The position numbers and the translations under genes are program-made. A DNA stretch of 64,000 nucleotides, from positions 24,661,001 to 24,725,000 of the forward strand of contig NC_057916.1 of NCBI RefSeq assembly GCF_018873765.1, read 5' to 3'. Positions 3,001 to 28,047 of this stretch are shown here, piece after piece. This stretch comes from Telopea speciosissima. Lineage: Eukaryota; Streptophyta; Magnoliopsida; Proteales; Proteaceae. The notes below the pieces were generated by a model that did not search any database, was not told the origin of the DNA, and was given only the letters and a program-made list of their open reading frames with translations. Numbering within the stretch: position 1 is the stretch's first letter; each line of letters opens with the position of its first letter.

Positions 3001-4831
3001 TCCCTCTCCTCCATATCTCTATCCTCCCAATTGTTTCTTCTCCTCTAGATACTATTTTTTCTCCCTTCAATAACTACCTCTTTCTTCTCTTTATTTCTCT
3101 CTTCTCCCTCACAGTAGCAAACTAGCACTTATCTATCCCCTATTTTATTTTCAATGACTCCTCTCTAATTTTCTTTTCTTTTTTACTTTATCTATTTCTT
3201 TAGTCTTTTATTTTTTTTTTTTTCTCTAAAATTGATTGTTATTATCTTGTCTGAAATTCTAGATTTGATGTCTGTTATTATCCTCTATTAATCCTAACCA
3301 ACAGATCTGAATTTCTAGAATTCTTCCTTCACTTTCCCATAGTTCCCCTCTTTTTAGGCTCATCACCGTGGGCAAATCAGATTTCATTAGATCCCTACAA
3401 CCTTGTGATGCAGCCCCATGTGCCCACACCCGAAGGAAGAAGAAGAAGAAGAAGAAGCCCTGAAATTAGGGCTTAGTTTAGAGCCATAGCTTAGGTTTAC
3501 ATTTAGTAGGTTCTATACTTAGCTTTATTTCAGCTTACTTGTAAACTTAAGTTGAACCGGTTCAAACCATGGTTCAATTTAAGTGATTTAATTAAGTGTC
3601 TTTTGCTTTAAGTTATTAGGGGTAGGTAGGTCTTTTAACCCTTTTAAAATTTTAAGTTGTTTTAATTAGATCCACCCCTCCACGATTTAGTGAGGGAGTG
3701 TTTTGTTTAGATTAGGATTTGGCCTCTGGCCTTCTATTATTAATATTGAAATTGTGGGAGGCTCCCCCACAAGTTTTATGAATTAAAAAAATTGTTTGCT
3801 GCCATTGTTGCTGTTGCTACTCTTTGTGAGTGTTTGTCTTGTGGTTCTATCAAGGAAGAAAGAGTAGGTAGATCTCCTACGACTCCTTACGCCGTGACAA
3901 CTGGGAGGATCCCTGAATCTGAAGGTGGTTCTATCCTTCTCTACTGTCCAATCTTGCTGCCAGTGGATTCTACTGTAAGTTTGAGACCCAATTCTGTTCC
4001 TAACCCTCTACTTCCCCCCCCCCCCCCAATCAATTCCCCTTTGTTTTTTGTTTGAATTTCATAAACCCTAATCACCCTGAACCCTGTCCAGCATTAACCC
4101 CGCATCAGAATCTCATCAAAATTCAACCACAGCCCCCGTAGGCCTCCCCCTCCACTCTATATTCATCTCAGTCCCATCCAACCACTCAAACCCTAATTTA
4201 CATTGTCTCTGTAAAACCCCAAATTCCTGTGTAGACCTAACCAGCCATCAGAATTGCACCATATTACAGCCAAACATCCCTCTCATTGCCCTTAGCACTC
4301 GACCTTAGCCCCTTGCCCTAATTCCAAGTTTAAACCCTAATTTAAACCTAAATTCTAAAACCAAAACCCTAACCCTAATTTCTGAAATTTGAATTTTACT
4401 CAAACCTTGTTCAAACCTACACTATTAGCTTCTCCTAGACCTGCCCATTAAAACCATATAAGATTTAGCTCCATTCTCATAAACTTAACCCTAATTCTGC
4501 CCTAAATTACCCAATTCTGTCCATTTGAACCAGCAGCCCCTTTTGATCCTGTTGCTTGGCCTCTCATAGGATCCTTCTCCTATCTAGAGCTACATTACCC
4601 TGCTTACATCAGCACCTAACCAAAGAACTAAGATCTGGAACAAGGTTACAAGGGGGGGAAATGGCAAAAAGTAGGAAACTTGGACCCTGGGGGAAAAAGA
4701 AGAATAAAAAGAAAGAAATAAATCCTTGCAACATTCACAAAACACCTGTGCTATAAGCAAACACATATACATAATAGAACCTTGAAAAGCCGCTCTATTT
4801 GAACCAGGAAAACAAGTACACTAGATCTCAC
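1..4831. other. Gene-free stretch, probably intron of GET4
   Basis: No coding exon was found on either strand. The stretch lies downstream of GET4 exon 5 on the minus strand; because that exon ends in a normal donor site and the next GET4 exons are not visible, it is probably intron. It holds pyrimidine-rich tracts (about 2930-3230), several poly-C runs (780, 2850, 4012), a short GAA microsatellite near 3435, an LTR-like stretch near 1786-2400 and CCCTAA-like words around 4320-4380. Short open frames here match nothing I recognise. Confidence 0.6.
1786..2400 (+). repeat. Solo-LTR-like sequence
   Basis: The stretch opens with TGATGCAGG, the same start as the LTRs of the element at 17222-20657, and carries a TATATAATGAAACC promoter-like word near 2171 followed by a leader-like sequence. 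No second copy, primer site or coding region lies beside it. The right end is not defined and no clean target duplication could be fixed, so this is a tentative old solo LTR. Confidence 0.3.
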
Positions 4832-7800
4832 CTAATTGCAGCTTTCAAGAATGATGAACAACCTTCTACACGAGTTTTGGCAGCCCCCAGGGCATGGGAG
4901 AGTTGTTGCATGTCATCATCATCCTCCAAATGTTGTAAATGTTGTGGCACTGAAATCTGTGGAAATTTCTTGTATATACTCCTGACACGGTCTAACATAA
5001 ATGGTTTAGTTATAATCATGAAAAACATAAAGGTAACACATTGATCAGGTACGGATATAAAAATGTTTTATGAAACATGTCACATATTCCAAACTTGGAG
5101 TCTAATAGTCTACTAACGCATTGCCAGCCCTAATATCATGCTTATATTATAAGATAAAACTCAACCAATCCAAGTGTTTGTTTGAGAACGGATGCTAATG
5201 TCACCACAAAAAATAAGTGGCTGAGCCACATGCTTATATATATATATAATAACTTTTCCGACTCTGAATTTTTCCGACTCTGACATCTCAGACAACATTT
5301 GGTTATACATCTTAGACCAAAGTGACAAAGAAATAATTATTTGCTTACTCTATCAAAGGATATACCGAGGGGTTAGACTGAAAGTGACATGGGGAGAAGT
5401 AATGAGAAAACAAAACGATGGCTTTGAGTTAAACGCGAAGCAGGATTCAGGTATACAACCCAATTTAGTTGGGATAAGGCTCAAAGAAATGAAGAATGAC
5501 TGGGAAAAGCTATTTTATGAAGCCCATGAGGCCATGATGGTGGCTTTGGGTAATTGTGATGTGTTTCAGCTAGTCGGCTAGCGTGCTAAGTGTTCAAGGG
5601 GAGGAGAAAGAAGAGAAGAATAAAAAGGGGGGAAAAACAACTTCTGGGCCTCGAAACCAAGGTTTCAAGTTGGCATGGAGAAAGTACCAGGTTTCAACTG
5701 AGATATGGTCGAAACCTAGTAAATCTCGATTTCTGGCTGGTCAAAATCAGTGTTGGCACCGAGTTCTTGATCATTACCTACAATGCAAGCACAAGGTAGT
5801 CTAGGTTTTCAACAACACAGCAACCTAAGTCTAGCACATAAGGAGTACAAGAATACAAATGAAACAAGCTAAAAAGTAGAAACACTTACAACCCTTGCTC
5901 TGTTTCGATTCTTGGTACTCTGTGAAACTCTAAGTCACCAAACGCTGCTTTAATAGTCACTGGAATCTTCAACTAACTCCTTGATGAGAGGAACTTGAAT
6001 CTTCAAGTAGACATTTGCTTGTGGGACTCCATTTCCTCCCTCTTCTTCTCTTATCTTGCAAACCCTCTTGGTTTACACAATTGCTCAACTACCTATCTTC
6101 TAGCCTTCAATGAAGCAACGAATCAATCAATAGAGTGGATTTAAGCAAGAAACCCTAGCTTCTCTCTTTCCTTATCTCTTCTTCCATTCACTTCCTCTTT
6201 TCTCCTCCCTCTTCTTCTCTCTTGGGAGCTTCAGTGCTTACAACACTCATATTTCGATTATAAAGAGCCCCAAAAAGCAACTGAAATCGGACCAAGTTGA
6301 ACTGCCCGTGGTTCAACCATTCATCTGTGTTATCAGCAAAATGACCACATCTCACTCGTCTAGTGTCGGATTGACTTGATTCTGGGGCATTGGAAAGAAG
6401 ACTTGAAGCTCTACAACTTTCATGTTTTGAGCTGCATCCCAGGTAGTGAGTAAGACCTCAAAAAACGTGCCATAAGTTATTCGAGATCATAACTTATTCG
6501 ATCGGACTCAGATTGCACCAATTCTTGGGGCATATGAAAGTAGACTTGAAGCTCTCCAACTCAAATGTTTTGAGCTTCAACACAGTTAGGAAGACCTTGA
6601 AAAATGCGGCTCAAATTATTGATGTGCAAAAATTGGATTCTACAGAAGTTACTATTCATTTTTGCATTCAGACAAAATCAGCTGGACAGAGGCCGGATGT
6701 CTGACGCCTGACCTCTGCCCATTCAAATACACATCGCTCTCATCTAACCTCCGATTGAGCCGATTTTTTTCCACGTGAAAGATGCCTCAAAGGGAAACAA
6801 CTTTGATATTTACACCTTCAACTCAGGTTCAGTGCACGGTTTCTAAATTGATTATGAAACTGATGCAAATGATGAAGCTACTCCCTGAAGCATACGCGCA
6901 ATGCCTGAATAAGTGAATATCAATTCATAACTTCCCACTCTGATATCGGATTGGAATCATAGTTGTTTAGGCGTTGCCTAGGCGTCCAAGCACCCTTTTT
7001 TGGATGGGCACCTTGGTCACCTAGATGCTTTGTTGGTGTTGCCTTAGTTTTTGAAACCCCCCCCCCAATGCCTTGGGTCGCCTAGTGCTTCAACAACTAT
7101 GATTTTTATGATTCAAAAATTGTTGGAAAGCTAACTCAAAGATCTACATTTCTCATGTTTTAAGCTCCTACAAATTCCAACTAGAGGACAGCTCAAAAAT
7201 AGAATCTGGGCATCATGCACAACATCTACATTCGAGATCATTGCTCCGTCATCCGAGCACACTGAATGACCAGATTCTTGAGGCATTGTGAAGCTTGCTC
7301 ATAGGACTAGTCTCTTTCAGTTTTGTGCTTCAACAAAATCCCAGTGAAGGACATCTCAAAACACCTGTGAAGTAACTGCTCCAACATAAATTTTGTTAAA
7401 GTTATTAGTTCTCATGTCCTAGGGGTATTTCTGGAACTAGTTATTAACTAGTTTCCTTATTATGTAATTTCTTCTTTTTCTTTCTTTTTACCCTTTACCT
7501 CCCTAGGGAGGTTGGATGTAATATGTCAAGACATCATATTTGAGTAATATAGGTGTGGAGGGCGAAATCCCAAGACACAACTTACAACCGAGACTCTTTC
7601 TCCTCCTTGTTCTTCTCCTCTTCTTCTTCTTCTTCTTCTTCTTCCTCCTTCAACTTCTTCTTCTTCTTCTACTTACACTCTCAATCTCAATCTCAATCTT
7701 AACTTGGTATCAGAGCGCAGGTTTTGAGAGTCGTATCCAATCTCCCTCTCCCTATTTTTTCCTCTCTTTGGAATCCAAGAACATAAGGGATTCCAAGGAA

Positions 7801-10800
7801 GAGGCTCTTATATAAACTGATTGTTGAAGGAGTCTGAAATAGGTTATTTTCAACCTATTCAAGTTAGTGATGCTGCCTCTTGAGCTACTTTGAAGCCCTG
7901 ATGAAGTTTTGGAGCTCACCCAGCTTTTTCTAGGTTTTCCGCCAGGTTCCTGTTGCAGGTCTTGTATCTCCTTCTCTCGGGCTGTGTTTGGATCATGGAG
8001 TAGCTCTTTAAGATCGTTTCTGAGTCCTATTTATGCCCCTTATGCTTGCACTTGATGGATGTGAAGCTATTTGGAGCATAACCCATTCTTGTGTGACCTC
8101 TGTTTCTGCCCAGGTAAAGCTGAGACTGATATTTGATTCTTTTTCTTGTACTTGGAGTACAGTAGGCTCTTCTCTTAGTTGAGAAATAATTATGGACATC
8201 TTGTCTGAAGTCTTGCAACAGTATTAAGTGTTTTTGTTGCTTGTAAAGTGTGTGGGTAAAGGCTGTTCCAGCTTATGCTATTTTTCTTCCGGCTGAATTT
8301 CTTTTTTTTTCTGTTGTTGGAATCATTTCTTGGGTTGAGTGTGTACTCCCCACTTGTTGTTGGGACCCTTGTGTATGGTCAAGTGTTCATTTCCTTATAC
8401 TATGGTTGATTCATCAACATCTGGTTTTGGTTCGGCTGATTCACAGCCCACTCCAACAGCTCCTCGATTGGTTTATGAGAACACCCATCTACAGATCTCC
8501 TTTGTGCAGCTTGATGGTATTAATTACTTGGACTGGTCACACTCTATGAAGCTTTCTCTTCGAAGCAAAGGGAAGCTTGGGTATATTACAGGTGCCATTA
8601 AAGCCCCAGAGCCCAGTTCACCTACCTATGGAACATGGGAGACAGAAAACTCTACAGTGATGACCTGGTTAATCTTCTCCATGAAACCAGAGATTGGGAG
8701 AAGATTTATAAGAAAAGAAACTGCCAAGGCAATCTGGGACAGTGTCGCCCTGACCTTTGACAGAGTGGGTGACTCTGCCAAGGTTTATCAGCTCCACCAG
8801 AGAATTAACTCAATGAAACAAGGTGACAAGACCATTTATGAGTACTACAGTGCTTTTCTTGGTCTTTTGGAGGAGTATGACCACTACAGGGACCTCCAGT
8901 TGACTAACCCAGAGGATGAAGCCAAAGTACACCGGACCCTTGAAAAGGAGCGTGTCTTCTCCTTACTTGGTGGTTTGAATCCTGACTATGAGCCAATTAG
9001 GCTTCAGATCTTAGGCAGGTTTCCCTTTCCATCTCTTAGTGAGGTCTGTAGTTACTTACAGAGTGAGGAAACTCGACGTACTACTATGGCACCAACATCT
9101 GTTCCATCTCTTGAGCGGTCAGCCCTCAATATGAGTTCCTTCCGAGACACCAGTGGAGGTGGTAGAGGCCAAGGGCTTAACCATACTGAAGAAAGAGTAG
9201 TGGAGCCAATTGGTGCTAGTGGAGTTGGTCGCGACAGGTTTAAATGTGATCATTGTGGGAGGACAGGACACACTAAGGATAGGTGTTGGTCTCTTCATGG
9301 TCGCCCTCCTGGCACTCGTGATCGTGGTGGCCGTAGAGGGGGAGCTAGAGCACATTCTGTGATGACTGAGGCAGATGCTCCACAAGATGACTCCACTTTG
9401 GTAGATGCGGTGTTTCGCAAGGTTATGTCACAGCTAAGCACATCTCCTGCATCCACAATGGCCAGTTCTTCCTCATCCTCAGCTTTACAGGTCTCCACCT
9501 CAGCTTCTACTGCAGCCCAGTCTTGGGTCATTGATTCTGGTGCCACTGACCAGTCATATGATTCCCATACCATTTGTTCTGGTAAGGACAAGGTTAGGGT
9601 AGCTGATGGTTCCCTTTCCTCCATCTCTGGTAAGGGCAGTATCCATGTTACACCATCTATTTCTCTTACTTCTGTCCTTCATGTCCCTAATCTTACTCTT
9701 AATCTTTTATCTGTGAGTTACTTGACTAAATCTCTGAATTGTTGTGTCACCTTTTATCCTTCTCATTGTCTTTTTCAGGATTTGGTGACAAAGAGGATTA
9801 TTGGTAGCGGACGTGAGGAACAAGGCCTGTATCTTTTTTACCCTTTTTTGCCCACAGCTCAGTCCTATGTATGTGGACATGATGATAGTAGTTCTGTGGA
9901 GTCTGTTATGTTATGGCACCGCCGTCTTGGCCATCCATCTTTTATTGTAATGAGGAAGCAATTGCCTCACTTATTTTCTTCTGCTGCTTCTTCTCATATT
10001 TTTCAATGTGAATCATGTATGTTTGCCAAACATTGTCGTTCCTCTTATCCATACCATGGTAATAGAACTGCTGTTCCCTTTCATATTGTCCATATGGATG
10101 TTTGGGGACCTTCTCCTACTACTTCCTTATTTGGCTATCATTACTTTGTGTCATTTATTGATGATTTTTCTGGTGCTACTTGGACTGTTCTCATGAAGCA
10201 TAAGAGTGATGTTTGTGATGCATTTAAAACCTTTTATCAGATGATTCTTACTCAGTTTGACACTTGGATCAAAATTGCTCGGTCCAATAAAGGGGGTGAA
10301 TACATGTTTGGTGGCCTCCAAACCTTCTTTTCTAATAATGGCATTATCCATCAGCTAGTGTGTGTTGACACACCGCAACAAAATGGGGTTGCTGAGCGAA
10401 AAAATCGCCATTTATTGAAGGTCACCCGCAGTCTCTTGTTTGGCATGAATGTCCCCAAGATCTTCTGGTCTGCTGCCCTTCTCACAGCTTCTTTTCTCAT
10501 CAACCGCATGCCAACCAAGCTTCTTGATTTCAAATCTCCCTTGGACATTTTATCTCCCAAGGTTTCTGCTTTCTCTCTTCCTCCTAGAGTCTTTGGTTGT
10601 GTTTGTTATGTGCATGTTAACAAATTTGCTCGCACTAAACTTGACTCTAAAGCCCTCAAGTATCTATTCCTTGGGTATTCTTCTACTACTAAGGGCTACA
10701 AGTGCTATCACCCTTCTTCTCGTCGGTGCATTATCTCCAAGGATGTCACCTTCTTTGAATCTATTCCTTTCTTTGCTCCTCAGCATCCTCTTCAGGGGGA

Positions 10801-13800
10801 GCATTGTGGAAGTGAACAGGTTGTTGATTATCTTCACCCTCCTCTCCCTATCTCCCCTTTTATGTTTGATATTGGAACACACAAGACTGTGGCGACTGTG
10901 GATGTGGGTAATATGGGTGATCAATCACAATTAGGTGTGAATACAAAATTGGTGGTTGAGAATGATTCTGGTAAGGAGAAGGATTACCACATTACCTACA
11001 AAAAGGGTGAAGGCTTGCATAACAGAGAAAAGCAGATCTACCAAGAGTCCTCTTTGGATCCAGATCCGCATCCTCCTCAATCGGTGACACTCATTCTCCT
11101 CCATCTGATTTAGAACTTCCTATTGCTGTTAGAAAAGGGAAAAGAGCTTGTACTAATCCTATAGCCCAGTTTGTCTCCTATAATGCTCTTTCTTCTACAA
11201 GTATTGCCTTTATTATTGCTCTCTCTACAACTTCTATTCCCAGGAATGTTACTGATGCTATGTCTGACCCAAAGAGGAGACAAGCTATGTTTGAGGAGAT
11301 GATGGCTCTTGAGAAGAATGGCACTTGGCAGTTGGTAGATCCTCCCAAGGGACGTGTCCCTGTTGGATGCAAATGGGTCTATACAATCAAGTATAAATCC
11401 GAGGGTACTGTTGAAAGATACAAAGCAAGGTTAGTAGCCAAAGGGTACAGTCAGGTCTATGGGATTGATTATCAGGAGACATTTGCTCCAGTAGCTAAGC
11501 ACAACTCCATAAGAGTTCTTTTATCTCTGGCTACCAATAAAGATTGGCCTCTATATCAGTTAGATGTGAAGAATGCCTTTCTTTATGGTGACTTGGAAGA
11601 GGAAATGTACATGCAACCCCCACCGGGCTTCAAAGTACCCTCAGCTGAAGGGAAGGTGTGCCTCCTCAAGAAGGCACTATATGGGCTCAAACAATCTCCA
11701 AAGGCATGGTTTGAACACTTTCGACAAGCTATTCTTCAAAATGGATATTCCCAGAGTCAAACAGATCACACTCTCTTTACCAAACGGGGCAATGGTACCA
11801 TCACAGCTCTCATTGTTTATGTTGATGATATTGTAATCACTGGAGATGCTATGGCTAAGATAGATAAACTGAAAAGCTACTTGGCTAAACAGTTTGAAAT
11901 CAAAGATCTGGGCCCCTTGAAGTCTTTCTTAGGCATTGACGTATCAAGGACCAAGAAAGGAATCAACATATGTCAACGAAAGTTTGTGCTTGATTTGTTG
12001 ACAGAGACAGGGATGTTAGGATGTAAACCAGCAAGTTCTCCTATGAAGTAGAATCACAAACTAGGAGAAGATTGTGGTTCTCCTCTTGTTGATGCGGGAA
12101 AGTACCAGAGGCTAGTTGGGAAGCTTATTTACCTTTCTATGACACGCCCAGATATCTCCTATGCAGTGGGAGTAGTGAGCCAATTTATGCATGCCCCCAA
12201 GAGTGGTCACTTAGATGTTGTGTATCATATTCTAAGATATTTGAATTCATGCCCAGGGAAAGGTTTGTTGTATGCCAGGCACAACCACCTGAGAGTGGAA
12301 GGTTTTACTAATGCTGATTGGGCTGGCTCCATCACAAACAGGAGGCCTACCTCCGGCTACTGTACCTTTGTGGGAGGTAACTTGGTTACATGGAGAAGCA
12401 AAAAACAGTCGGTTGTAGCTAGATCCAATGCCGAAGCAGAATTTAGAGCTATGGCTCATGGAGTGTGTGAACTTATATGGTTGAAAAGACTTGTTTAGGA
12501 ATTGGGTTTTGGCATTGCAGGTCCTATGAGGCTTTACTGTGATAACAAGGCTGCCATCAGCATTGCCCACAATCCTATACAACATGACAGAACCAAGCAC
12601 ATTGAAGTGGATCGACACTTCATCAAGGAGAAGATTGACTCTGGCTGTATTTGCACTCCTTTTGTTAAGACTGGTGATCAACTAGCTGACATCTTCACCA
12701 AGGCCCTTGCCTCTCCTCAGTTTGGCTCTCTTCTATGCAAGCTGGGAATGCATGATATTTATTCTCCATCTTGAGGGGGAGTGTTAGAGTTATTAGTTCT
12801 CATGTCCTAGGGGTATTTCTGGAACTAGATATTAACTAGTTTCCTTATTATGTAATTTCTTCTTTTTCTTTCTTTTTACCCTTTACCTCCCTAGGGAGGT
12901 TGGATGTAATATGTCAAGACATCATATTTGAGTAATATAGGAGTGGAGGGAGAAATCCCAAGACACAACTTACAACCGAGACTCATTCTCCTCCTTGTTC
13001 TTCCTCCTCTTCTTCTTCTTCTTCTTCTTCTTCTTCTTCTTCTTCTTCTTCTTCTTCAACTTCTTCTTCTTCTTCTACTTACACTCTCAATCTCAATCTT
13101 AACTAAATTTACAATCTTCCTCACATAACTACATCCTTCACCTTCGGCAACACCCTCATGTACTCAAGGGCTTACAACTGCCACCTCACCATACCAAACA
13201 CAACAAGCCTCTCATCGCCTGCTCAACCACTACCACACCATCAACAGTACATATCCACAGCTACTGCCCATTGCCCTGACAACTGTACATGTTGCTCGTG
13301 AGGATACAACATCAACATACCTTGTTTGTCAACCAAGTCAACTCGGAAGCTTGTTGATCACTGTAGCCTTCAACTGACAGCTGCCTACTGTCACTGCTGA
13401 CTGTATCTTGACAACTGCCAATTGTAACTGAAGACAACCAATACATGGCTTTCAGCTATGCTAACTCTGCTCGTCCTCCAATTGACCATCCGTATACCTG
13501 CAATCTCAGCTCATCTGAGTGAGTGTGTTGACCATCAAGAATACCAACACAAGCTCACAGCTCAACTGATCTTCTTGGCTGACGGTGTTGACAACAATGA
13601 CAACATAATGTAGTTCTAGATTGGTAGGAGACCAACTAGGAGCCAACAACCAGGATCTGCCATGAACAGGGTAGTTTGAATAGGTCAAAATAAGTGTTTT
13701 TGGTTAAATTAGGGTTATGGTTTAATGGGACCTAATGTTTGATGGTAGGGTTTTGCTAAGTTGATGTAGAGGAGTCTTCCACTGAAGTTATTGTTAAGTT

Positions 13801-16800: not shown

Positions 16801-19800
16801 CTTTCTATTGCTGGCCCAAGATTAATCCTGTCACATATCTATAACTGTTGGTATTTTATCTATAAATTTCCAAAACCGCATGGAATTCATGAGATATCAA
16901 TTCATTAAATAGGGAACTTAAAAACATCTATAATGACATCAAAATCAAACCAAACATGCAAATTTGATCACCAAAATAGGGCCCAAAGAGAAGCTAGAGG
17001 GATACTGCCTTGACTCAATTCAAATTACTAAAGTACAATAAACACACACACACAAACAAAAAAAAACTGAAAGATGATAATAAACTTACAACACAAAACG
17101 AACACTAAAACTGATTACAATCAACTTCGGCAACAAACAACAAAGTAGAAGCCAATTGTCAAAAAGCCACATGCAATCTCAAATTTAAGATATTGGATAT
17201 CCCCAAATCCCAATCTAGGAGTGATGCAGGACAATCTTGGGCCGGGCCCAACTGGTGTACTACATTGGACCAACCCAAATCCAGAAGAACCGAGTCCAGT
17301 TTGAGTGTTTGGATCTAGTAGGATTTTAGGAATTTTATTTTATTTGAGAAATTATTATGTAATCTTTTATTTTAAGGTAGTTATTAGACACATAGGGAAA
17401 TTTCCAATTTGAGTTTTATTGGGTTTCTATTTTAGTTAGCCTGGTTTTATTAAGTAATTAGGAGTCTTTATTTTTGGGTGCCTTTTATTTCTCTTTATAT
17501 ATGATGTAATTCCCCATCGTTAGGGATATGCAAGAATGAATTGAAAAAAAAAAGTGAGCCTGTGCGTGTGCGCACACCCCCCCCCCACCTTCTTCTTCTT
17601 CTCACGGCTCCTTCTCCCCCCCCCCCCCCCCCTCTGATTTCTTCTCAGATTTCCCCTCTCCTATTCTTTCTCCTGCTAATCTGATTTCTTTCTATCTTTT
17701 CTTCTTCTCCTATTCTATCCCCCATTATCTGGTATCAGAGCCCAAACCTGGGTGAATCTCTTCCCCTCTCTCTCTCTCTCTGATTCTTCATCCTCTCATT
17801 CTCTCTTCCCTGCTATTTCCTCAATCTCACTTTTCCCCATTCTATTCTTCGTCCTTCTATTTCCTCTTCGCTGCAGTTGTGACCGAACTTCAACAGCAAC
17901 CATACCACCAAGCCCCACAACAACTTCCGCTGAATCCCCAACCCATACTTTCGTAATTTCGTTTCCCATCTATTACAGACCAAAAAAAAAAAAAAAAGGA
18001 GTCGTCTCTGTGGAAACAGAGGTAGAATCGAAAACCCAGACCCCAATCCCATCCCTTTCGATTCCCTGAGCATAATCCCCAACCCACCTTCTTGATGCCG
18101 CCAAAACCAGGAAAAAGACAAAATATATATATATATATATATAATCGAAGCCAAAAAAAAGAAGGGCATATACCTGGTTCGTAGTCCTCCTTCCACGATT
18201 CAACTCCCCGTAGTCGATCAGCTCCCTTGCACCGTCGCCATCCATCGAAGTCATGAAGCCCCTCCTTCCTCGCAGCGCCTTCCTCCATTCTTCCTCTCTG
18301 GTTTGACAGAATCAGACTCCAAGTAGAAGACGGTAATAATTCCCCCCTACCCACGATCTTACTTTTCTCTTTTCTTATTTTCTATTCCTAAACTGCCCCT
18401 CAGTCTTTTATTAATTCTGTTTTATCCTTTTATTCACCCACTTCCCAGTTTTGCCCTTCACCTTATACGTGGGAGTCCATCCCCTTTTGTGTTAGTTGTT
18501 GCACTTGCCATAATTACAATTCTGCCACCGTCCTTATAAACTTCATTGTATTTACAAATTACAATTGTGCTTTCAATGTTCTCCAAACCACAACCCAACC
18601 GAATTCTTTTAGTTACAATCTGCCAGCTGCTCTGTCCTATAACTGTGAAAGTGTTGCATCAAGTGTTTTCTCCTCATAGATTTGTTGAAAAGATCAAGAT
18701 ATGTCATCAGTCTGCTATTGTTTGTCAAGCTTTTGTACAGTATCAGTCACTCCTGAGTGCTGTTTCAGCAAGCAATATTCTTCAAGGCCGTAATATTTAT
18801 GATGATTGTTGTACACTGAACATCCAATTTGCATGCCTACATGAGGTACAATTGAACTACAAACGGTCAGCGGGTTTCATGAACACATCCGTGCCTTCAG
18901 AACAGAAAGACAGGAAAACTATGATTGAAGCATCACCGACTGAATCACTTCTAGGAAATTCTATTGCGTTGACAAACAACTCTACTGAAGATGTCTTTGT
19001 TAAAGAGATTCACGTCGACAAAGTTGAAGCCCCAAAAGACAAGACAAATGGATTAACACAAGTGGAAGAACAAATTGAAACTGGACGTGATGATCGAGAA
19101 GAACTGAACGGCCCGATCAAGGTTGCAACCAAAGAACTAACCAATGGTCCGATTGCAGTGGCAAAACCCCGCCATCGGATTCCAATCAAAATCATATCAT
19201 TTGTGTACAACCATCAAGAGATCGTAGTGGCTGATCGGAAGATGTGCAGGATCACCATCCCAACTAAGCTTTTGATCGTGGATGTTGATCGAGTAGTGCT
19301 GATCCTTTCCTTCTTTAAAACTCGTGGACGAGTTTTTCTCAACATCGGGCGAGTTGATGCAGGACAATCTTGGGCCGGGCCGACCTAACTAGTGTACTAC
19401 ATTGGACCGACCCAAACCCAGTTGAACCGAGTCCAGTTTGAGTGTTTGGATCTAGTAAGATTTTAGGAAGTTTATTTTATTTGGGAAATTATTATGTAAT
19501 CTTTTATTTTAAGGTAGTTATTAGACACATAGGGAAATTTTCAATTTGAGTTTTATTGGGTTTCTATTTTAGTTAGCCTGGTTTTAGTAAGTAATTAGGA
19601 GTCTTTATTTTTGGGTGCCTTTTATTTCTCTTTATATATGATGTAATTCCCCATCGTTAGGGATATGCAAGAATGAATTGAAAAAAAAAGTGAGTTTGTG
19701 CGTGTGCACACACCCCCCTTTCTTCTTCTTCTCACGGCTTCTTCTCCCCCCCCCCTTTGATCATAGTCTGAAATCTCGCGGCCGAGATTCTCGGTTTTTT

Positions 19801-22800
19801 CAAAAGCCGAGTCGAGATGGCAAGGGAAACAGAAAAGTACCATATCTCGGCGAGATCTCGTCTCGATATCATCTTGAACTTTTATTGAAAAACAGAAGAC
19901 AAATTGCAAGATCTCGGGTCGAGTGTCGGATCTCGGTTGCTGGATATGGGTCACTTCACTCACTTTACCCATTTAACTTAAAATGTTAGGCATATACATG
20001 CTGTAAACAGCAAGGTTCAACAGAACCTTGCTTTCTATTATTTGGCTCTCTTCTCTCTAACTCTCTTCTTCTCTCAATCTTCTCTTCCCCCCTTCATTTT
20101 TTGGTTGGCTTGAAACATTTGGAAGCTGAATTTGGTGGCAAAGTGAAGATTGCAGCTCAATTTTGGAGGATTGCTCAAGTTTGTGAAGGTGTTTGATGGT
20201 TTGTAATGCTTATTAACTTGTTTTCCTATTAATTAAATGTTTTGTTTGAGTTCTATGTACATAAATTATGTCATTAATGTATATACTATGCTATTTTAAT
20301 ACGTCGCCGCCTACCAACTAAGGGTCCGATGTAAAAGTCATATTTGGACTTTGTTTTTGCAAAATCTAATAATGCCATTGTGTTTAAATGGCCTAAAATA
20401 GGTTGTCTACTGATTTTCAGACCCAACAGAGGTTTAAAACCCACCGAGATGGGCTTCCGAGTCGGGAAAAAAAAAAAGTGCACAAACTCGCCGAGATCTC
20501 GGCCCAACTCGGTTTTTTCAAAGGCCGAGATGGCCCCGAGACCCAAGATTTCGGACTATGCCTCTGATTTCTTCTCAGATTTCCCCTATCCTATTCTTTC
20601 CCCTGCTAATCTGATTTCTTTCTATCTGTTCTTCTTCTCCTATTCTGTCCCCCATTAAGGAGCTACTTCGATGCTCCAGCATGGCCCAAAATACTAAGCA
20701 ACTTAAGAGATTAGTGGGGTCCATCGTAATACTAGATCTTGAATATGTCCAAAATCAAGGTTTTCTCCATAATGGTTATAATTATTGAAGTATATCCCAA
20801 AAGCTTAAGCTGTTGGTAGACAGGCCCAACTGGTATATGAAGTCATCCATGGTCCCAGAGTGAGTCGACGTGGGATTATTCCCAGCACTACCCTACACGT
20901 GTTGCCCCTCTTTTGAGTGGAAATATACGTCAATACATGGCATAAGTGGCCCCTCTTTGGGTGACCTTACACATATTAAATTAACATAAAAGGCCTGGTG
21001 CTTTGATACCATATTGAATAATCCATCCCAAAAGCTTAAGTTGTTAAGTGGAGAAGCCCAACTTGTATATAAAGTCATCCTATGTCCCAGAGTTAGTCGA
21101 TGTGGGATTATTCCCAACAAGAATACTCAACAGATCAGTAGGATTCATTGGACCCACTGGCACCATGTGGACCCCCTTGGAATATGCCCTTTCTACTTGG
21201 GAATGGATTATCTTGCTCATAGTTCGAGAACTCGCGAGATCTCGCCGTGATCTCGTCGAGTTTCTCGGTTTTTGGAAAAGCCGAGACGAGACTGCCTACG
21301 AGCCTCAAAAGTGCAATATCTCGGCGAGATCTCGGATCTCGGTTTCGACCCATTATTTTAACCCACCTACCACTTAAATACCTTACCTAATTGGACAAAC
21401 TTGACATATCTCGGCGAGATCTCGGATCTCGGGTCCAGATCTCGGGTTGACCCAAAGTTGAGGCTTCGAGTTGGAAAAAAAAAAATACACCAACTCGCCA
21501 AGATCTCGACTCGTCTCGGTTTTTCCAATAGTCGAGTTGGTACCGAGACCCGAGTTTTAGTACCTTGATCTTGCTTCATGTGTTAGGACATCTCCAGGAT
21601 ATACCAAAATACCCACTTATGTAGAAATTAATAGTCCTAACAGCTATGATCTAGATAGAGATAGAAATTGCAACAATCTTCGGAAAAGACCTACTAAATA
21701 TTGAACCGTGGGGCCAACTTCAATACAATTAATCTAGTAAATGTTAGAACAATATAGCAAATGAACAAGGGTACTGATTTTACCACAAGAAAAGAGAAAT
21801 TATAATTTTAACACAATAAAAGAAACTGACCAAGATTATCTTCGTTATAAGGATATTTGCCTTTGACAAGTGTCTCCACAAACATTACAGCAAGCTCAGA
21901 TCCACAAGTAATCTGAAAAATACCTGATGCATCAGTATATCAATGTAATATATCATCTAAAATAGCCATAAAAACCATATGGAGTAAGACAACTAATTCA
22001 CTAAAATTTATACTGCATTTTTTGTCAAATACATTGGTTCATCAACGCAATAGAAAATTGAAACAGATGACACAATTAAGACAGATATTACTTTAAAGCT
22101 AAGAGCACTAGTCCAAGATTCAAATATGGATCAGATCTGATTGCCAATTCTTAGTGCCAAATCTTTAAGATACAGTTCTCAAGTCACCAAGTTATTTATT
22201 ATAAATAGATCCCGAAGTTGTTTTGTGAGCCAGCTCCAATGTTAACACACATAATATTAACAGATATATTGCTATCTATTATTAAATGGCTCTCGCTCTC
22301 TCAGAGCGAAGAAAATAAAAACCAACTTTACTTGGAGATGAGATGTGAAAAAGCGTAACCTGCCCATTTTTCAGTTGGGTACAGGCACCTGATTGAAGGA
22401 TATCCAAAGCTTCATCATATCTCTCAGCAGATACGTATCTGTCATCAAATAGGATAGGTCTCATCAGCATGCATCACTTAATTTAAGGAAAAAAAGCGAG
22501 ATAATGTGGCTGTACAACATTAGTTACTTCATATGTCTACCATATTACTTGGAAGAGGGTACACAAGAGGCACTAGTCTGACAATAAACAGTACTATGTA
22601 TAGACCACATAGAAATGAAAATCTCATATTGATAACATTCGCTTTACAATCACAAACCCCAAATTTTGTATTTGAAAAACGAAGCATCATCACCCCAACC
22701 CCCGATCCGGCTAGCTCAAGGTTCGAGAACTCGCGAGATCTTGCCGAGATCTCGCGAGTTTCTCGGTTTTGGGCAAAACCGAGTCGAGTTCCTAGTCGGT

Positions 22801-25588
22801 ACAAAAACTACAATTTCTCGACCGAGATCTCGCCGAGATCTCGAGATCTCGCCGAGATCTCGGTGATATCTCGAAGGTGAAAATCATGGTTTTTTTAGTA
22901 CAAAAACCAAGATCTCGGAGATCTCGGCGAGATCTCGGTTGGGCCCAAAGATGCTAGTTAGTTGTATTTAGCCCAATTTTCACCCAAAACCATTTCCAAC
23001 ATAAGAGAGAGCAGAACAAGTTCTTAGGCTCTAAACCAAGGGGAAAACCTCTCCTTCAAATTTCTTCTTCTTTCTTTCGATTGTTGGATGGAATGCACTT
23101 GTTTAGAGTTAGATTGAAGTGCCAAAGTGAAGATTCAAGTGCCAATTTGGAGCATCATCACCTATTTGCAAGATTTCAAAGGTGTTTTGGAAGCAAAGAA
23201 ACACTCACATCTGTCATATGCTCGGGAGGAGGACAACAAGATATGAACACCATGCTTACAAGTTTCGAAGCCGATATAAGGATGAATTTCTTGTTCAATC
23301 TCATTTTATGTAACAAATTAAGTGAACATTGATGTAATGTACATTTATTTGAATGTTTTGATTGCTAATTTGCTATGTTTTACTAAATTATATATAGATT
23401 ATGTTGTTTTAGACTTTTAGTACGACTGCCGCCTACCAACCTATGGTCCAAAGTGAAACTCATATTTGGACTTGTTTTTGGAAATCTGGGCATGCCATTG
23501 TGTTTAAATGGCCCGAAATATTGGATACCAAGTTTTGACCCAAAATATGTGTACAACCCACCGAGTTGGGGTCCGAGTCAAAAAAAAAAATTGCACCAAC
23601 TCGCCGAGATCTCGGCGAGATCTCGGCTCGACTCGGTTCGGCCTAGCCGAGATGCCACCGAGACCCGAGTTCTCGAACCTTGGGCTAGCTTGCTTGCCGC
23701 TTAAGGCGCGTTGCGTGGCCGGCCTCTCCTCATGGTTTGAGATATCCCCCTTGACCTCCCTTCCCCAAATCTTTGCTTTAATGCTCCTTCTATTCCAACT
23801 GGCATAGCAAACTAAAAACCAGTCGGAAGGCTTCCGAACTGTTAAGCAAGCCATTATTAGCCTTAACGAATAATTGGATCTTCTTTGGGTGGAGGAAAGT
23901 GCCCCCCCCCCCCCACTCTTGATGTAGATGAATTGATGGGCGGTTTCCTCAGCTAAAATAACCCCTTCTTTCGTTCGATTGCCTCAGCCACTGATACAGA
24001 TGTTGGCTACTCATAGACATTCTCATATCATACAGAATCTACTGGAAAGCACTAGTTACTTCATATGTCTACCATATTACTTGGAAGAGGGTACACAAGA
24101 GACACTAGTCTGACAATAAACAGTATTATGTATGAACCACATAGAAATGAAAATCTCTTATGGATAACATTTGCTTTAAAATCACAAACCCTAAATTTTG
24201 CATTGTAAAAAGCTAAGGGAAGATATGTATTGGTGCTCCCAAAAAAAATGAAAAAACAGGAAAATGTATTAACCAAAACAATGAAAAAGTAAACTAAGAC
24301 AACAACTCAGCCTTATCCCAACTAAATGGGGTCAGCTACATGGATCCTTGCAAAGACAGAGACTAAAAAATAATAAAGGGAAAGAGCACAAGAACATCTG
24401 CAGAAAACACAATAAAAGCCACCTAAAAGGAGTCGGCAACATGTATCAAGGTCCTCCAAACATCTCTATTCAAGGCATGCCCACCCATTCAACCAGTAAT
24501 AACAAGCAGTATTCAATTATAAAAGGTTTTGTAAACTAATAACAAGCAGTAAATCAAACATAAAGATGGGGTGCATGCCCACCCATTCAACAATGGAATC
24601 AATAGAACAGTTATATTCTGGCACTCCACCCATGAAACAAAATTACAACTGATAAAAAGACTGTACGTAACCTACCATAACAAGTTAACTAAAAAAATGA
24701 TGATGCTTTTACCTTGCTGTAAAGGTCTTGTACATCTGTTGAGCTCCATAGTAGTTACCATCATCTACAATTTTCTCCAACTTCTCTTGGGTCTGTATTT
24801 TTTAACAACAAAAATAGTGCTATCAAATTAGAATCTAGAAGTGCCCAATAACAAACTGTCCTGTCGATTTCCTGATTAACTCAATGATGCCTACTAAGAC
24901 CCATGGAAAAAAAAAAAACCCATAAAGAATAAAAATTTGAAATCTCTAGACGCTCAGACATAAACACGATGGCTCTCTTGATTCTAGTAACAAGACTAAT
25001 AAGACCAGATTTTGCATAGCACTTGACGGATAGAGAGGGAAAACGTTAATAAATAAACGATAAATAATGGCAAATAAAGTGAGATTTATTCAATTCGGCC
25101 GGTTGTGACAGAGAAAAAAAACAAAATTTGTAGTTATATTTAAAACGAATTCGCAACATTTCATTTTGGAAATTTAATTCCTAATGGCGCAAAGTTGTAC
25201 TCGATAAAGCAAATAAGCTAAAATGTCACCAAATTTAACCTGATTCGTTCTCTTCGTGCTTTAATTTTGCAAAGGAAAATATGAAATTTCCTGGCGATGC
25301 AAAATTTATCAATTGATCTCTTTGACATTCATGGTTCGATATCTCCCCCTTATCGGAGCTAAAGTTCATACTTTTTACCACAAGTTCGTGAATCAAGAAT
25401 GAAGAATGTTATGCAAACAATCGATAAACATATCAATTGATACAATTTCACAACGGAAATCAAACCCATTGCAATCATCAAACTATCTAATCAAGCAGCT
25501 AACACGAAATAATAACTTCAAAGTTTTAACTAATTCGAACCTCCTGTGCCGGAGGCAATACTCCTTTTTTGATCCTCTCTCTCGACAT
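4832..25588 (-). CDS. GET4: GET4 homologue, 5' part (exons 1-5)
   Basis: Partial gene on the minus strand, with exons 25541-25588, 24713-24792, 22360-22438, 21831-21912 and 4832-4991. All joins use GT-AG and reading phase is kept across all four (0, 2, 0, 1). They give about 149 N-terminal residues starting [16 protein letters not shown], with [32 protein letters not shown] and an acidic LEDDDD stretch, closely following plant GET4 (about 324 residues in Arabidopsis, recalled). GET4 proteins are alpha-helical repeat proteins that, with GET5/BAG6-type partners in fungi and animals, hand tail-anchored proteins to the ATPase GET3 for insertion into the ER. The last exon ends in phase 2 at a normal donor, so the gene continues past the left edge. 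Intron 4 (4992-21830) is about 16.8 kb and packed with transposons. No disabling change was seen. The start is the only ATG giving the conserved N-terminus. Confidence 0.88.
4992..6957. other. GET4 intron 4, gene-free part
   Basis: Intronic sequence without a recognised gene. The only element hint is an RTE-type 3' end near 5430-5487. Two open frames near 5583-5804 overlap each other in different frames and match no family I know. About 6240-6900 contains loosely repeated phrases about reading AACTTGAAGCTCTACAACT, which look like a degenerate internal repeat. Confidence 0.5.
5430..5487 (+). mobile_element. RTE LINE 3'-end fragment
   Basis: The words CCCAATTTAGTTGGGAT and AAGGCT match the 3' end of the RTE-type LINE at 56836-57868, which ends in the same phrase. 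Only the last few dozen bases are present, a short 5'-truncated remnant. Confidence 0.4.
6958..7101. mobile_element. Small TIR element (MITE), hAT-like
   Basis: A 144-bp piece with inverted ends, CATAGTTGTTTAGGCG on the left and a matching CAACAACTATG on the right. Its interior repeats GCCTAGGCG / TCGCCTAG motifs. The flanking 8-mers ATTGGAAT and ATTTTTAT agree at five of eight positions, so the target duplication is weak. CA...TG ends and an 8-bp spacing suggest hAT kinship. Confidence 0.45.
7394..7704 (+). repeat. 5' LTR of the copia element
   Basis: It begins TGTTAAAG and ends ...CTTAACT immediately before the primer-binding site. It contains a TTC microsatellite near 7615-7670 that accounts for most of the length difference from the 3' LTR. 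Confidence 0.9.
12782..13104 (+). repeat. 3' LTR of the copia element
   Basis: It begins TGTTAGAG after the polypurine tract and matches the 5' LTR throughout apart from a longer TTC microsatellite (about 13008-13070) and a handful of substitutions. The target duplication follows directly. Confidence 0.9.
13111..15682. other. GET4 intron 4, repeats without genes
   Basis: No gene was recognised. The stretch has a CA-rich low-complexity region (13130-13600), a dispersed repeat (13610-14352, also at 56115-56835 in the other orientation), and an LTR-like stretch around 15080-15460 with a TATATATAGG promoter-like word near 15293 but no partner LTR. Confidence 0.5.
13610..14352 (-). repeat. Dispersed repeat, copy 1
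   Basis: Read on the minus strand it matches 56115-56835. Shared landmarks include the phrases around CAATCAAACAAGCTGC, CACCTTGCGGTGTGAAG and GGCTCCTAGTTGGTCTCCTA. Identity is high at both ends and weaker in the middle. No protein or LTR structure was seen, so the class is unknown. Confidence 0.6.
15696..15817 (+). mobile_element. Au-like SINE, head-truncated
   Basis: A 122-bp body with the widespread plant SINE phrases GGAAACAGC, GTAAGGCTGCGTACAT and GGGAGCCTCGTGCACTGGGT. It is flanked by a perfect 13-bp duplication AAAGAGGAGAACA (15683-15695 and 15818-15830). The promoter B-box region is degenerate and the A box is missing, so this is a truncated retroposed copy inside the GET4 intron. Confidence 0.85.
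15831..17221. other. GET4 intron 4, no features seen
   Basis: AT-rich intron sequence. Around 15530-15590 and 16250-16410 there are repeated GTATCGTATC-type words that look like relics of one short repeat interrupted by other sequence. No gene or complete element was recognised. Confidence 0.45.
17222..17727 (+). repeat. 5' LTR of the PTB-carrying element
   Basis: It starts TGATGCAGGACAATC and ends CCCATTA, two bases before the primer site. It includes a TTTATATATGATG promoter-like word and C-rich microsatellites. Confidence 0.85.
18588..18912 (+). pseudogene. Captured PTB (RRM2) cDNA fragment
   Basis: The reading frame contains [52 protein letters not shown] and [12 protein letters not shown]. 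These follow the second RNA-recognition motif of the plant polypyrimidine-tract-binding protein homologue PTBP3 ([20 protein letters not shown]... in Arabidopsis, recalled). No intron is seen, which fits capture from a spliced mRNA by the surrounding LTR element. Only about 105 of roughly 430 residues are present, the RRM2 core is altered (for example IYDDCC for IYDGCC), and no host promoter is visible, so it is a gene fragment. An 843-base open frame (18546-19388) extends past it into unrelated sequence and the 3' LTR. Confidence 0.8.
19355..20657 (+). repeat. 3' LTR, split by a TIR transposon
   Basis: LTR sequence at 19355-19761 and 20569-20657 matches the 5' LTR; the break is filled by the TIR transposon at 19762-20560 and its target duplication. 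The order of events is therefore LTR element first, TIR transposon second. Confidence 0.85.
19762..20560. mobile_element. GAGATCTCG-rich TIR transposon, long copy 1
   Basis: A 799-bp element with ends CATAGTCTGAAATCTCG and, on the other strand, CATAGTCCGAAATCTTG. Flanking 8-mers CCTTTGAT (19754-19761) and CCTCTGAT (20561-20568) differ at one base. Both subterminal regions carry repeated GAGATCTCGG / GCCGAGA palindromes; the middle holds a pyrimidine-rich stretch and a conserved block around 20303-20450 (CGCCGCCTACCAAC...TTGTGTTTAAATGGCC) shared with the copy at 22717-23682. No transposase frame is present. CA...TG ends with an 8-bp duplication suggest a non-autonomous hAT element. Confidence 0.85.
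20783..21119 (-). mobile_element. TRIM (miniature LTR element)
   Basis: Two direct repeats of about 105 bases (20783-20887 and 21012-21119) flank only about 124 bases. Read on the minus strand the LTR begins TGTTGGGAATAATCCCAC and the upstream LTR is followed directly by the primer site TGGTATCAAAGC (21000-21011, minus). These are the hallmarks of the TRIM class; the LTR matches a widespread plant TRIM type I recall. Flanking 5-mers ATAAT and AGAAT differ at one base. No coding capacity is expected in this class. Confidence 0.85.
21218..21567. mobile_element. GAGATCTCG-rich TIR transposon, short copy
   Basis: A 350-bp element with left end CATAGTTCGAGAACTCG and right end (other strand) CAAGGTACTAAAACTCG. 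It is flanked by the perfect 8-bp duplication ATCTTGCT (21210-21217 and 21568-21575). The interior is dominated by CTCGGCGAGATCTCGG words, with a short unique centre (TTTTAACCCACCTACCACTT). It is nearly the same as the copy at 61432-61773. Confidence 0.9.
22523..22677 (+). repeat. 155-bp direct repeat, copy 1
   Basis: This matches 24053-24213 with roughly 90 percent identity by eye (shared ATATGTCTACCATATTACTT, CAAGAG-CACTAGTCTGACA). It lies in GET4 intron 2, about 40 bases to the left of a TIR transposon. Confidence 0.85.
22717..23682. mobile_element. GAGATCTCG-rich TIR transposon, long copy 2
   Basis: A 966-bp element with a perfect 17-bp terminal inverted repeat CAAGGTTCGAGAACTCG and a perfect 8-bp target duplication GGCTAGCT (22709-22716 and 23683-23690). 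Left and right subterminal regions hold tandem GAGATCTCG/CCGAGATCTCGG units. The middle contains a block shared with 19762-20560 (near 23425-23560) and a short open frame (23081-23332, 83 residues) that I do not recognise and that is not conserved in the other copy. No transposase. It sits in GET4 intron 2. Confidence 0.92.
24053..24213 (+). repeat. 155-bp direct repeat, copy 2
   Basis: Second copy of 22523-22677, same orientation, in GET4 intron 2. The TIR transposon and about 370 further bases separate the two copies. Confidence 0.85.
24299..24360 (-). mobile_element. RTE LINE 3'-end fragment
   Basis: On the minus strand it reads ATCCATGTAGCTGACCCC, then ATTTAGTTGGGATAAGGC and TGAGTTGTTGT, the 3' end of the RTE element at 56836-57868. 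Only the terminal part is present. Confidence 0.6.
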
Positions 25589-26077
25589 GATCCCCTCTAG
25601 GTCTAACAGATTTCGCCGGAGACCGTTCCGAAAAGCGCACTTTCGGGTTTTATTCCTGCATTTGCATACAGAACCGACCGTCTACGATCTTTACGTATTT
25701 TGTACCTTACCCAATTTAAGAATTTATATGTAGCAGACAGATCCGAATTTGACCCGAAGGTAATGTCATCCTCTTTTTTATTTTTTTTTGGGTAAAAACA
25801 ATGTCATCCGCTCCCATTCACTAAAACCATGCAACGGCAGTTCGGGATGGAGATGTCGACACGTGGCATCTCGGACTATGCCAAGTTCAATAAGACATGA
25901 AAAGACACAACAAAAATCAATCAACTCGAATCGTTGGATGTCTGAACTGCCATGTGTCAAAATCTCCACCCTGAACTGTCGCACTGCACGCTTAGGGAGT
26001 TGGAGAGTATTAAAATCTATGTTTAGAATCCAATAAAAGAAAAGGAACAGACATAAAAAAAAAAAACGAAAATCATT
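25589..26077 (-). promoter_or_regulatory. GET4 upstream region
   Basis: About 490 bases between the GET4 start codon and the first MITE to its right. This should hold the leader and core promoter of GET4 on the minus strand. No convincing TATA box was seen close to the start; the stretch is locally GC-richer around 25600-25720. No gene was seen on the plus strand. Confidence 0.4.
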
Positions 26078-26389: not shown

Positions 26390-28047
26390 TTTTTTGGTAG
26401 AAAATGAACTATATATTCGAAGAGCGTGAAAAACGCATGGTATCCGAGTTACATAAGTCAGATAGTCCGACACGCAACGGACCTTGCCCTCTGTGCCAGG
26501 GAGTTAGCCACGCTGTTAATCTCCCTGGGAATGTAAGAAAAAGTGCAAGATAAGGGGTATGTAGATAAGAGTTTGATGTCCTGAATAAGAGCCAAGACCG
26601 CTATGATGGTAGTTAGAGGGGATTTGTCCTTAAGAAGGGACACCAGCACTTGATTATCACTCTCAACTAGAAGATGATCAAAGCCTTCAGCAATTCCCTG
26701 TAGAAGTCCAGCCCGCATTGCCAAAGCTTCTCCTTGAAGAATGGTGTTGAACTTAATTGGCTCTGAGCACATGAAGAGAGGATCCCCCAAATTGTCCCTA
26801 AAGACAAAACCAATGCCACAAGTCTCATCAGTCAACGAAGCATCAGTGTTTAGTTTCTGCATGTGTTCAGGAGGAGGAGTCCAATATGCATTGTCTCTGT
26901 TAATCCTCAGCTGCTGAGTCTCAGTAGTGACCCTCTTGGAATGAAGAACGGAGAACTCCTGAAATTCCTTATTCGCAGAGAGAATAACAGCCTTGGGGGA
27001 GGCCAACTGTCCGTTAAAGACCAAATTATTGCGGGCCTTCCATAGGTTCCAACAAATAAAGGAGGACAACCCTATAACTTCTTTGGTAGGCTGAAAGGTA
27101 ACAGGGGAAATGGAGCTCTAGCTGCTAATAACTTGGGTGAGGACTGGGTTTTGAAGAGGAGGAATGTAAGTAAGCTGGGAACCATACCAAGTCGCCTTAG
27201 CAAAAGGGCAGTCGAGGATAATGTGGTCTATTGTTTCCTCGGCTGCTCCACATCTCAGGCATTATGGGTTTACCTTGCAATGTCGCCTAATGAGAGCTGC
27301 ACCAATTGCAATACCATTAGCACAGGCCCTCCATAAGAAACTTCTAACCTTAGGAAGAGAATAAGAATTCCATATAGATCTCCAAACACACTTAGGGACC
27401 TTGCTGAGCGATCCAGTAGTGGAAGAGGAGGGGAGGGTAGCACGTTTAAGCTCCTGCTGATTGCAGAGAAAATGGTAACAAGATTTTGCCGTGTAAATTC
27501 CATTCCTAGATCCACTTCACACCTGATAATCCTAGAAGGAAAGAGACTGAGTTGAATGTTCAGGATCGCCTGTCTGTCAATAGGATGGAATAGAGAGGTA
27601 ATCAGTTCCAAGTTCCAAGATCTGTTAGCCTCATCAATTAGCTCTGAAACAAATACCACTCGATGCTCACCATAATCAGGAATTTGAAGCCGAAGGGAGG
27701 GAGAGGAGGGGAGCCAAGCATCCTCCCAAATCCCGATGTTCTTTCCATCCCCCACCATCCAAACTAGACTGTCCAACAAAACCTTACGCCCCTCGATCAC
27801 ACTACGCTAGGCCCATGAAGGGGAAGATCCAAGACGAGCTTCCAGGATAGAAGAAGTTGGGTAGTACAGCTGTTTCAAAATAGTAACCCAGAAAGAGGAA
27901 GGATACTTCCACAAGCGCCAAGCCAGTTTGCCGATAAGAGCTTTATTATGAATTGAAGGATCCTGAAACCCAATACCTCCATTCTCTTTAGATTTGCACA
28001 AACGATTCCAAGATATCCAGCTGATCTTATGAGAGTCTTCAGTAAAA
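26390..28047 (-). mobile_element. L1-type LINE remnant (ORF2 C-terminus)
   Basis: Minus-strand remains of a plant L1-like ORF2. From right to left: the tail of the reverse transcriptase (KENGGIGFQDPSIHNKALIG), the linker region (WMVGDGKNIGIWEDAWLP), a zf-RVT-type domain (cysteine-rich, near 27.2 kb) and a C-terminal RNase H-like domain (KLNTDASLTDETCGIGFVFR...VESDNQVLVSLL...YIPREINSVANSLAQ; 26458-27069). It is 5'-truncated near 28047 and has several frame changes and stops (the main frames are 27807-28001, 27270-27800 and 26458-27069). The 3' end near 26390 runs into AT-rich sequence. No target duplication was identified. Confidence 0.88.

Follow-up and report, generated by a model that had tools for sequence, protein, structure and literature searches.

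Which kind of mobile element carries the palindromes that crowd this part of the Telopea speciosissima genome, and what are these palindromes for? Four copies were found in the window, that is, the whole 64-kb stretch of DNA that was analysed. The central one is a 966-bp non-autonomous hAT copy (22717–23682, forward strand) with CAAGG...CCTTG ends, flanked by the exact 8-bp duplication GGCTAGCT at 22709–22716 and 23683–23690. A 350-bp MITE-like copy (21218–21567, forward strand) has imperfect ends, CATAG on the left and CAAGG on the right (where the sequence reads CCTTG), with the exact duplication ATCTTGCT at 21210–21217 and 21568–21575. The same subfamily includes a 342-bp MITE-like copy (61432–61773, forward strand), with CATAG...CCTTG ends and the exact duplication ACTAAAGG at 61424–61431 and 61774–61781. 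The fourth copy, of 799 bp (19762–20560, forward strand), represents a second subfamily, with CATAG...CTATG ends between the flanks CCTTTGAT and CCTCTGAT. The CATAG/CAAGG...TTG-type inverted ends described in the first-pass annotation are present in all four copies, by direct reading as well as by scoring. The 8-bp duplications, which it called perfect, are indeed exact in three of them, but a single mismatch is observed in 19762–20560. An end-like pair (CATGGTTCGATATCTC ... CATCTCGGACTATG) without target duplication, at about 25330–25880, is perhaps a decayed fifth copy or a chance occurrence. Two similar stretches in direct order (about 20790–20910 and 21015–21125) were also noticed by eye between two of the transposon copies.

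The palindromic motif GAGATCTC occurs 62 times in the window when up to one mismatch is allowed. The four elements, 2,457 bp in all, account for 30 of these sites. The remaining 32 are spread over 61,543 bp, for which a mononucleotide shuffle gives a mean of 21.3. In the 966-bp copy, the 5' terminal inverted repeat (TIR) and its adjoining sites span 22717–22754 (forward strand), with sites starting at 22725, 22735 and 22746, the first being the TIR variant GAGAACTC. A 5' subterminal array of GAGATCTC palindromes extends over 22824–22936 (forward strand), with sites from 22824 to 22929 spaced by 8–11 bp apart from one gap of 44, and includes exact copies of a 20-mer, GAGATCTCGGCGAGATCTCG. The 3' subterminal palindromes and the 3' TIR occupy 23606–23682 (forward strand; sites at 23606, 23617 and 23667). 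The four exact 20-mer sites of the window all lie inside this copy, for which the high subterminal density proposed earlier is confirmed; the other three copies hold looser versions of the 20-mer.

Several unrelated features share the window. A Copia-type LTR retrotransposon coding region (8339–12051, forward strand) is split into two open pieces, with copia-type gag, gag-pre-integrase and RVT_2 (2.9e-77) matches, and rve under the cut-off. An open frame on the reverse strand (26461–27069) contains an RVT_3 (RNase H-like) domain (1.6e-18) and is perhaps a LINE remnant. Also on the reverse strand are exons of a DNA photolyase/cryptochrome-type gene (44124–45925; DNA_photolyase 8e-23, FAD_binding_7 under the cut-off), a mitochondrial carrier protein in three matched stretches (62585–63451; 1.1e-59) and an open frame with an MEA1 match (40319–40876; 2.4e-10).

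The ends and duplications were then considered over the genome (822.9 Mb, 1,287 contigs). Allowing one mismatch, the 17-bp end CAAGGTTCGAGAACTCG is found 614 + 647 times, as compared with 0 + 2 for the reversed control, and the 20-mer has 208 + 247 sites against 0 + 0. Sixty-two end pairs were scored, each left end being joined to the right end that gave the fewest flank mismatches; most left ends had a single candidate partner, and L019, L035, L041, L045 and L062 had several. Eleven inner false ends, with four to eight mismatches, were removed (L010 379; L027 1088; L045 184, 4015 and 5614; L047 5715; L048 301; L060 5803; L063 3505 and 5814; L066 5727). Setting L051 aside and adding L067 gave a set of 51 copies, 14 of them chosen for holding the 20-mer, 33 picked by the end alone and 4 from the window; with L051 restored the set amounts to 52, and L001 and a copy of 88% identity stand outside it. 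Many genome copies with 8-bp duplications had been anticipated, and this is what was observed: the duplication is exact in 45 of the 52 end-to-end copies, carries one mismatch in six and is absent from one (L051). When left and right flanks were paired across different copies, none of 2,550 combinations matched (51 copies, L051 left out). Since the 14 copies chosen by the 20-mer favour dense arrays, counts were repeated on the 33 end-picked copies, of which 29 have an exact duplication. A search starting from the end sequence alone relied on 100 listed 17-bp matches, all of them exact and located on the first three contigs, so that well-preserved copies are favoured. Seventy-seven of these were covered by the DNA examined: 64 belong to exact-duplication copies (one being L001), seven to one-mismatch copies and six to none.

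CACTA elements, too, typically carry dense repeats in their subterminal regions, and the family could in principle belong to another TIR superfamily, Mutator-like or CACTA, its 8-bp duplications being incidental. Such an origin is extremely improbable. The ninth base is duplicated in only 8 (upstream) and 6 (downstream) of the 45 exact-duplication copies, which is not above chance level, and the 9-bp duplication of Mutator-like elements (MULEs) is thus not found. CACTA (En/Spm) elements have CACTA ends and a 3-bp duplication, whereas the ends are CAAGG or CATAG here and the duplication is of 8 bp, in 51 of 52 copies. To this are added the hAT domains of L013 and L032, detailed below, and it is the combination of hAT domains and 8-bp duplications that already refutes this alternative. 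Neither a majority of copies lacking 8-bp duplications nor a transposase of another superfamily was encountered. The targets of hAT elements prefer T at the second position and A at the seventh, and the duplications agree with this bias, T being in excess at position 2 (23/45) and A at position 7 (20/45), with p 2.7e-4.

The palindrome-ended elements are therefore a plant hAT family with gene-bearing relatives, as judged from the 8-bp duplication, the C-terminal dimerisation domain and the N-terminal BED zinc finger. Their ends follow the known consensus sequences in part. The excerpted text of PMC6027215 gives [T/C]A[A/G]NG as the general hAT TIR consensus and [T/C]AGNGNNG as its extended plant form. 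The CAAGG ends fit the former and not the latter, and the CATAG and CATGG variants miss position 3. In comparison with the Repbase-catalogued plant hAT elements treated in the same excerpt, CAAGG is thus shared with the general consensus, whereas CATAG and CATGG deviate (PMC6027215). Literature queries on the palindrome decamer gave, by title, no transposon work among the matches listed. None was found combining DUF659, hAT and subterminal, and nothing relevant appeared among the matches listed for CAAGGTT with hAT, TSD and MITE. The family is named nowhere among the literature matches listed, and may already stand in Repbase or P-MITE.

The gene-bearing relatives are eleven copies of 4.8–5.5 kb (L013, L029, L032, L033, L035, L036, L037, L040, L042, L055 and L067), which share the ends and the 8-bp duplications, with one mismatch in L033 and L042. 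In L013, the element spans 971–5956 (4,986 bp) with family ends and the duplication CTCGATAC, its coding pieces lying on the opposite strand. A Pfam scan covered two of the eleven. L013 matches zf-BED (PF02892, 1.7e-8), DUF659 (3.4e-32) and Dimer_Tnp_hAT (PF05699, 1e-14); in L032, a single open stretch holds zf-BED (2.9e-7) and DUF659 (3.7e-49), and Dimer_Tnp_hAT (1.5e-11) follows in another. The autonomous-type relative with a hAT transposase and the same TIR, whose existence the first-pass annotation had suggested should be checked, is thus represented by these gene-bearing copies. Its description of the short copies as non-autonomous hAT-like elements is backed by the 8-bp duplications, the family ends and the BED, DUF659 and hAT dimerisation domains.

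Structural comparison was informative for the C-terminal block of L032, which aligns to chains of the transposase of Hermes, a house fly hAT element, with an E value of 0.007. Hermes makes 8-bp target duplications, and a BED zinc finger and a hAT dimerisation domain are common to both transposases. According to the excerpt of PMC6027215, E572 is among the key Hermes residues, and the ER motif that aligns to Hermes is taken to be the place of this residue. Two candidate catalytic aspartates of the RNase H-like DDE core were recognised by eye only. Exon 1 (BED plus DUF659) gave no match at E 1 to solved structures, the Hermes BED domain included. A single-sequence structure model of the transposase, with a mean pLDDT of 38.4, was too poor for use.

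No fully intact copy was identified. The full first-exon frame is missing from all eleven translated copies of about 5 kb (L051 and the ten gene-bearing copies other than L067). In L067, the first exon is open across 613 residues, a statement that covers this exon only. When the L032 stretch was searched against the genome, 92 of 4,261 first-look candidates were scored, at 77–100% identity; the matched stretch is free of stops in nine of the 92, the query copy included. Nearest-neighbour identity among ten gene-bearing copies reaches 95–98%, which suggests activity of the family that is fairly recent by plant-genome standards. CpG transitions in the larger copies are 2.8 times as frequent as at other sites (0.042 versus 0.015, counted over whole copies), as expected for methylated DNA.

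How do the short copies of the window relate to these larger ones? Three blocks of 22717–23682 align to L013, at 1–472 (96.5% identity), 483–555 (86.5%) and 556–966 (411 bp, 88.9%), showing this copy to be an internal-deletion derivative of a subfamily-A parent. In 19762–20560, the 3' 357 bp are 94% identical to L068; some 2.5 kb upstream of L068 lies a transposase exon with 80% identity to the subfamily A exon. Two more matches to this copy (C8:22814909 and C11:29498195) lie 2.5–2.9 kb from exons of the same 80% band, and the 5' end of this 80% subfamily is absent from the 901 bases of L069. The 350-bp subfamily, whose two window members are 89% identical to each other, shares only its ends with the larger copies, mostly at 72–83% identity. 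A genome search for 21218–21567 scored 40 copies, this one among them, at 89–100% identity, out of 3,107 first-look candidates. Allowing two mismatches, the 3' end of this subfamily, of the CTAAAACTCGG type, is matched 664 + 624 = 1,288 times in the genome; larger copies may account for some of these ends. No gene-bearing parent with exactly this 3' end could be pinned down among the 100 matches listed, where one has a listed transposase exon no more than 2.4 kb away and a second has one at 19 kb. At the first of these, a 341-bp span between ends looks like a separate short copy.

This organisation recalls that of maize Ac/Ds. The Ac subterminal repeat is AAACGG, and we know of no DUF659 domain in the Ac transposase; the Telopea family differs by its ends, its palindromic motif and its DUF659 transposase. 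Common to both systems, following the excerpted account in PMC3260210, are a gene-bearing element accompanied by heterogeneous derivatives, a common TIR with subterminal repeats, and 8-bp duplications. The internal-deletion copies resemble Ds-del and the 0.35-kb copies sharing only the ends resemble Ds1, as both are presented there (PMC3260210).

The palindromes themselves are concentrated near the ends. In the 31 copies longer than 1.2 kb, GAGATCTC (at most one mismatch) reaches 21.1 sites per kb in the outer 300 + 150 bp versus 0.04 per kb inside, and it is the most enriched 8-mer. The corresponding values for the 24 end-picked copies of this size are 19.2 (15.3 without the outermost 28 bp) and 0.05 per kb. 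Among CGAG-NN-CTCG decamers, the middle is AT in 239 cases, AA in 45, TT in 30 and something else in 2. The AT form, CGAGATCTCG, is the sole perfect palindrome among them, and the inner part of the TIR, CGAGAACTCG, is the AA form. It had been supposed that the motif was amplified in the non-autonomous copies. A local block duplication is indeed seen in the 350-bp subfamily, as a 27-bp exact direct repeat within 21218–21567, but the gene-bearing copies carry the array too: their 5–16 sites per copy (4–14 in the four window copies, in both cases with at most one mismatch) rule out an amplification restricted to non-autonomous ones.

Close to either tip, the sites also keep constant distances, whether the copy is gene-bearing or short. 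The distances measured in 22717–23682 (13, 23 and 34 bp from the 5' tip; 13, 65 and 76 bp from the 3' tip) recur in other copies. At the 5' end, the 13-bp site is found in 48 of 51 copies, as a rule in the TIR form CGAGAACTCG and as exact GAGATCTC in one, a constancy that is partly circular because this site belongs to the TIR used to find the copies. The 23-bp site is present in 40 copies (exact in 37) and the 34-bp site in 18 (exact in 16). At the 3' end, sites lie at 13 bp in 30 copies, at 65 bp in 40 and at 76 bp in 15. In the 33 end-picked copies, the 5' sites at 23 and 34 bp are found in 27 and 8, and the 3' site at 65 bp in 26. The commonest spacings between neighbours are 11 bp (117 cases), 10 (47), 8 (24), 52 (22) and 80 (20), and the values 52, 57 and 80 do not all correspond to a whole number of helical turns.

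These positions bear on the idea of a functionless array, in which a self-complementary repeat, expanded by slippage or block duplication, merely hitch-hikes with the ends. The 27-bp block duplication mentioned above would fit such a process, as would the variation in site number between copies, from 2 to 16. Its weak point is a constancy of position that drift is not expected to preserve: the 3' site stays at 65 bp across three identity bands of the transposase, and the 5' site stays at 23 bp across two. In both the copy of 88% identity (L070/L071; exact duplication TTAGCCAC) and the 80%-identity copy L068, the 3' site lies at 65 bp; the 5' sites of the former are at 13, 23, 51, 103 and 114 bp. 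Each of these two bands is represented by a single copy in this comparison, and the kept distances could reflect shared descent over a short time. On balance, we regard a functionless array as very unlikely.

Another distinctive feature is the asymmetry of the two ends. In equal 150-bp zones, 5' sites outnumber 3' sites in 27 of the 31 copies longer than 1.2 kb, with three ties. This is what would be expected if the palindromes were promoter or autorepressor sites of the transposase gene, hence denser at its 5' (promoter) end. Yet 12 gene-less copies of 326–439 bp, whose 3' end is of the CTAAAACTCGG type or closely similar to it, retain 5–9 sites each (L048, of 326 bp and with other ends, has two), and the 3' end too has a site at a fixed place. 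The retention of sites in copies without a gene argues for a cis role in transposition and not solely in gene expression. A purely regulatory function thus seems unlikely, although gene-regulatory and transposition roles could coexist.

For such a cis role, Hermes provides the closest model. In the excerpt of PMC10368747, two BED domains bind cooperatively to a quasi-palindrome at bp 11–27 of the left end, and the exact distance and phasing relative to the TIR matter. The Telopea family resembles Hermes in having a candidate BED site just inside the left tip, quasi-palindromic in Hermes, and in the asymmetry between left and right ends. By comparison with Hermes, its palindromes would have the right form and place for BED docking. 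The resemblance has limits, since palindromic character is ascribed in the same excerpt only to the first pair of the left end and to one deep inside, whereas the Telopea family has mostly perfect 10-bp palindromes in arrays (PMC10368747). The Hermes right-end repeats were, in that excerpt, not seen bound by BED domains, and about 70% of activity was left after mutation of the inner left-end repeats (PMC10368747), which implies that many sites of the Telopea family may be idle.

Taken together, the short copies very probably belong to a single plant hAT family as its non-autonomous members, and are mobilised in trans, docking included, by the transposase of the 4.8–5.5-kb copies, whose ends are the same. 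Paired BED fingers would dock on each palindrome, as in Hermes. The sites, which follow one another at roughly one helical turn at the 5' end and are fewer at the 3' end, would place a multi-dimer transposase over the tip. The enzyme would then cut at the CA/TG end and insert the element with 8-bp staggered joints; the sites retained in short copies would be needed in cis. That each CGAG(NN)CTCG site is a docking site for a pair of transposase BED zinc fingers, with stacking or assembly over the tip, is proposed by analogy and with moderate confidence. A more specific proposal is tentative, and we consider it possible rather than probable. The ends would form a built-in ruler, in which 10-bp palindromes, set one helical turn apart and at base-exact distances from the tip, would bring several BED pairs of a single assembly onto the same DNA face at the 5' end. 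A plant BED-DUF659 hAT transposase would then recognise an array, and not scattered single repeats.

In practical terms, the 17-bp end flags 1,261 places in the genome (at most one mismatch) for annotation. The family links non-autonomous copies to gene-bearing relatives within one genome. It also offers a natural test of hAT end recognition, with a candidate site that is palindromic, repeated and fixed in its distance from the tip, in three transposase identity bands.
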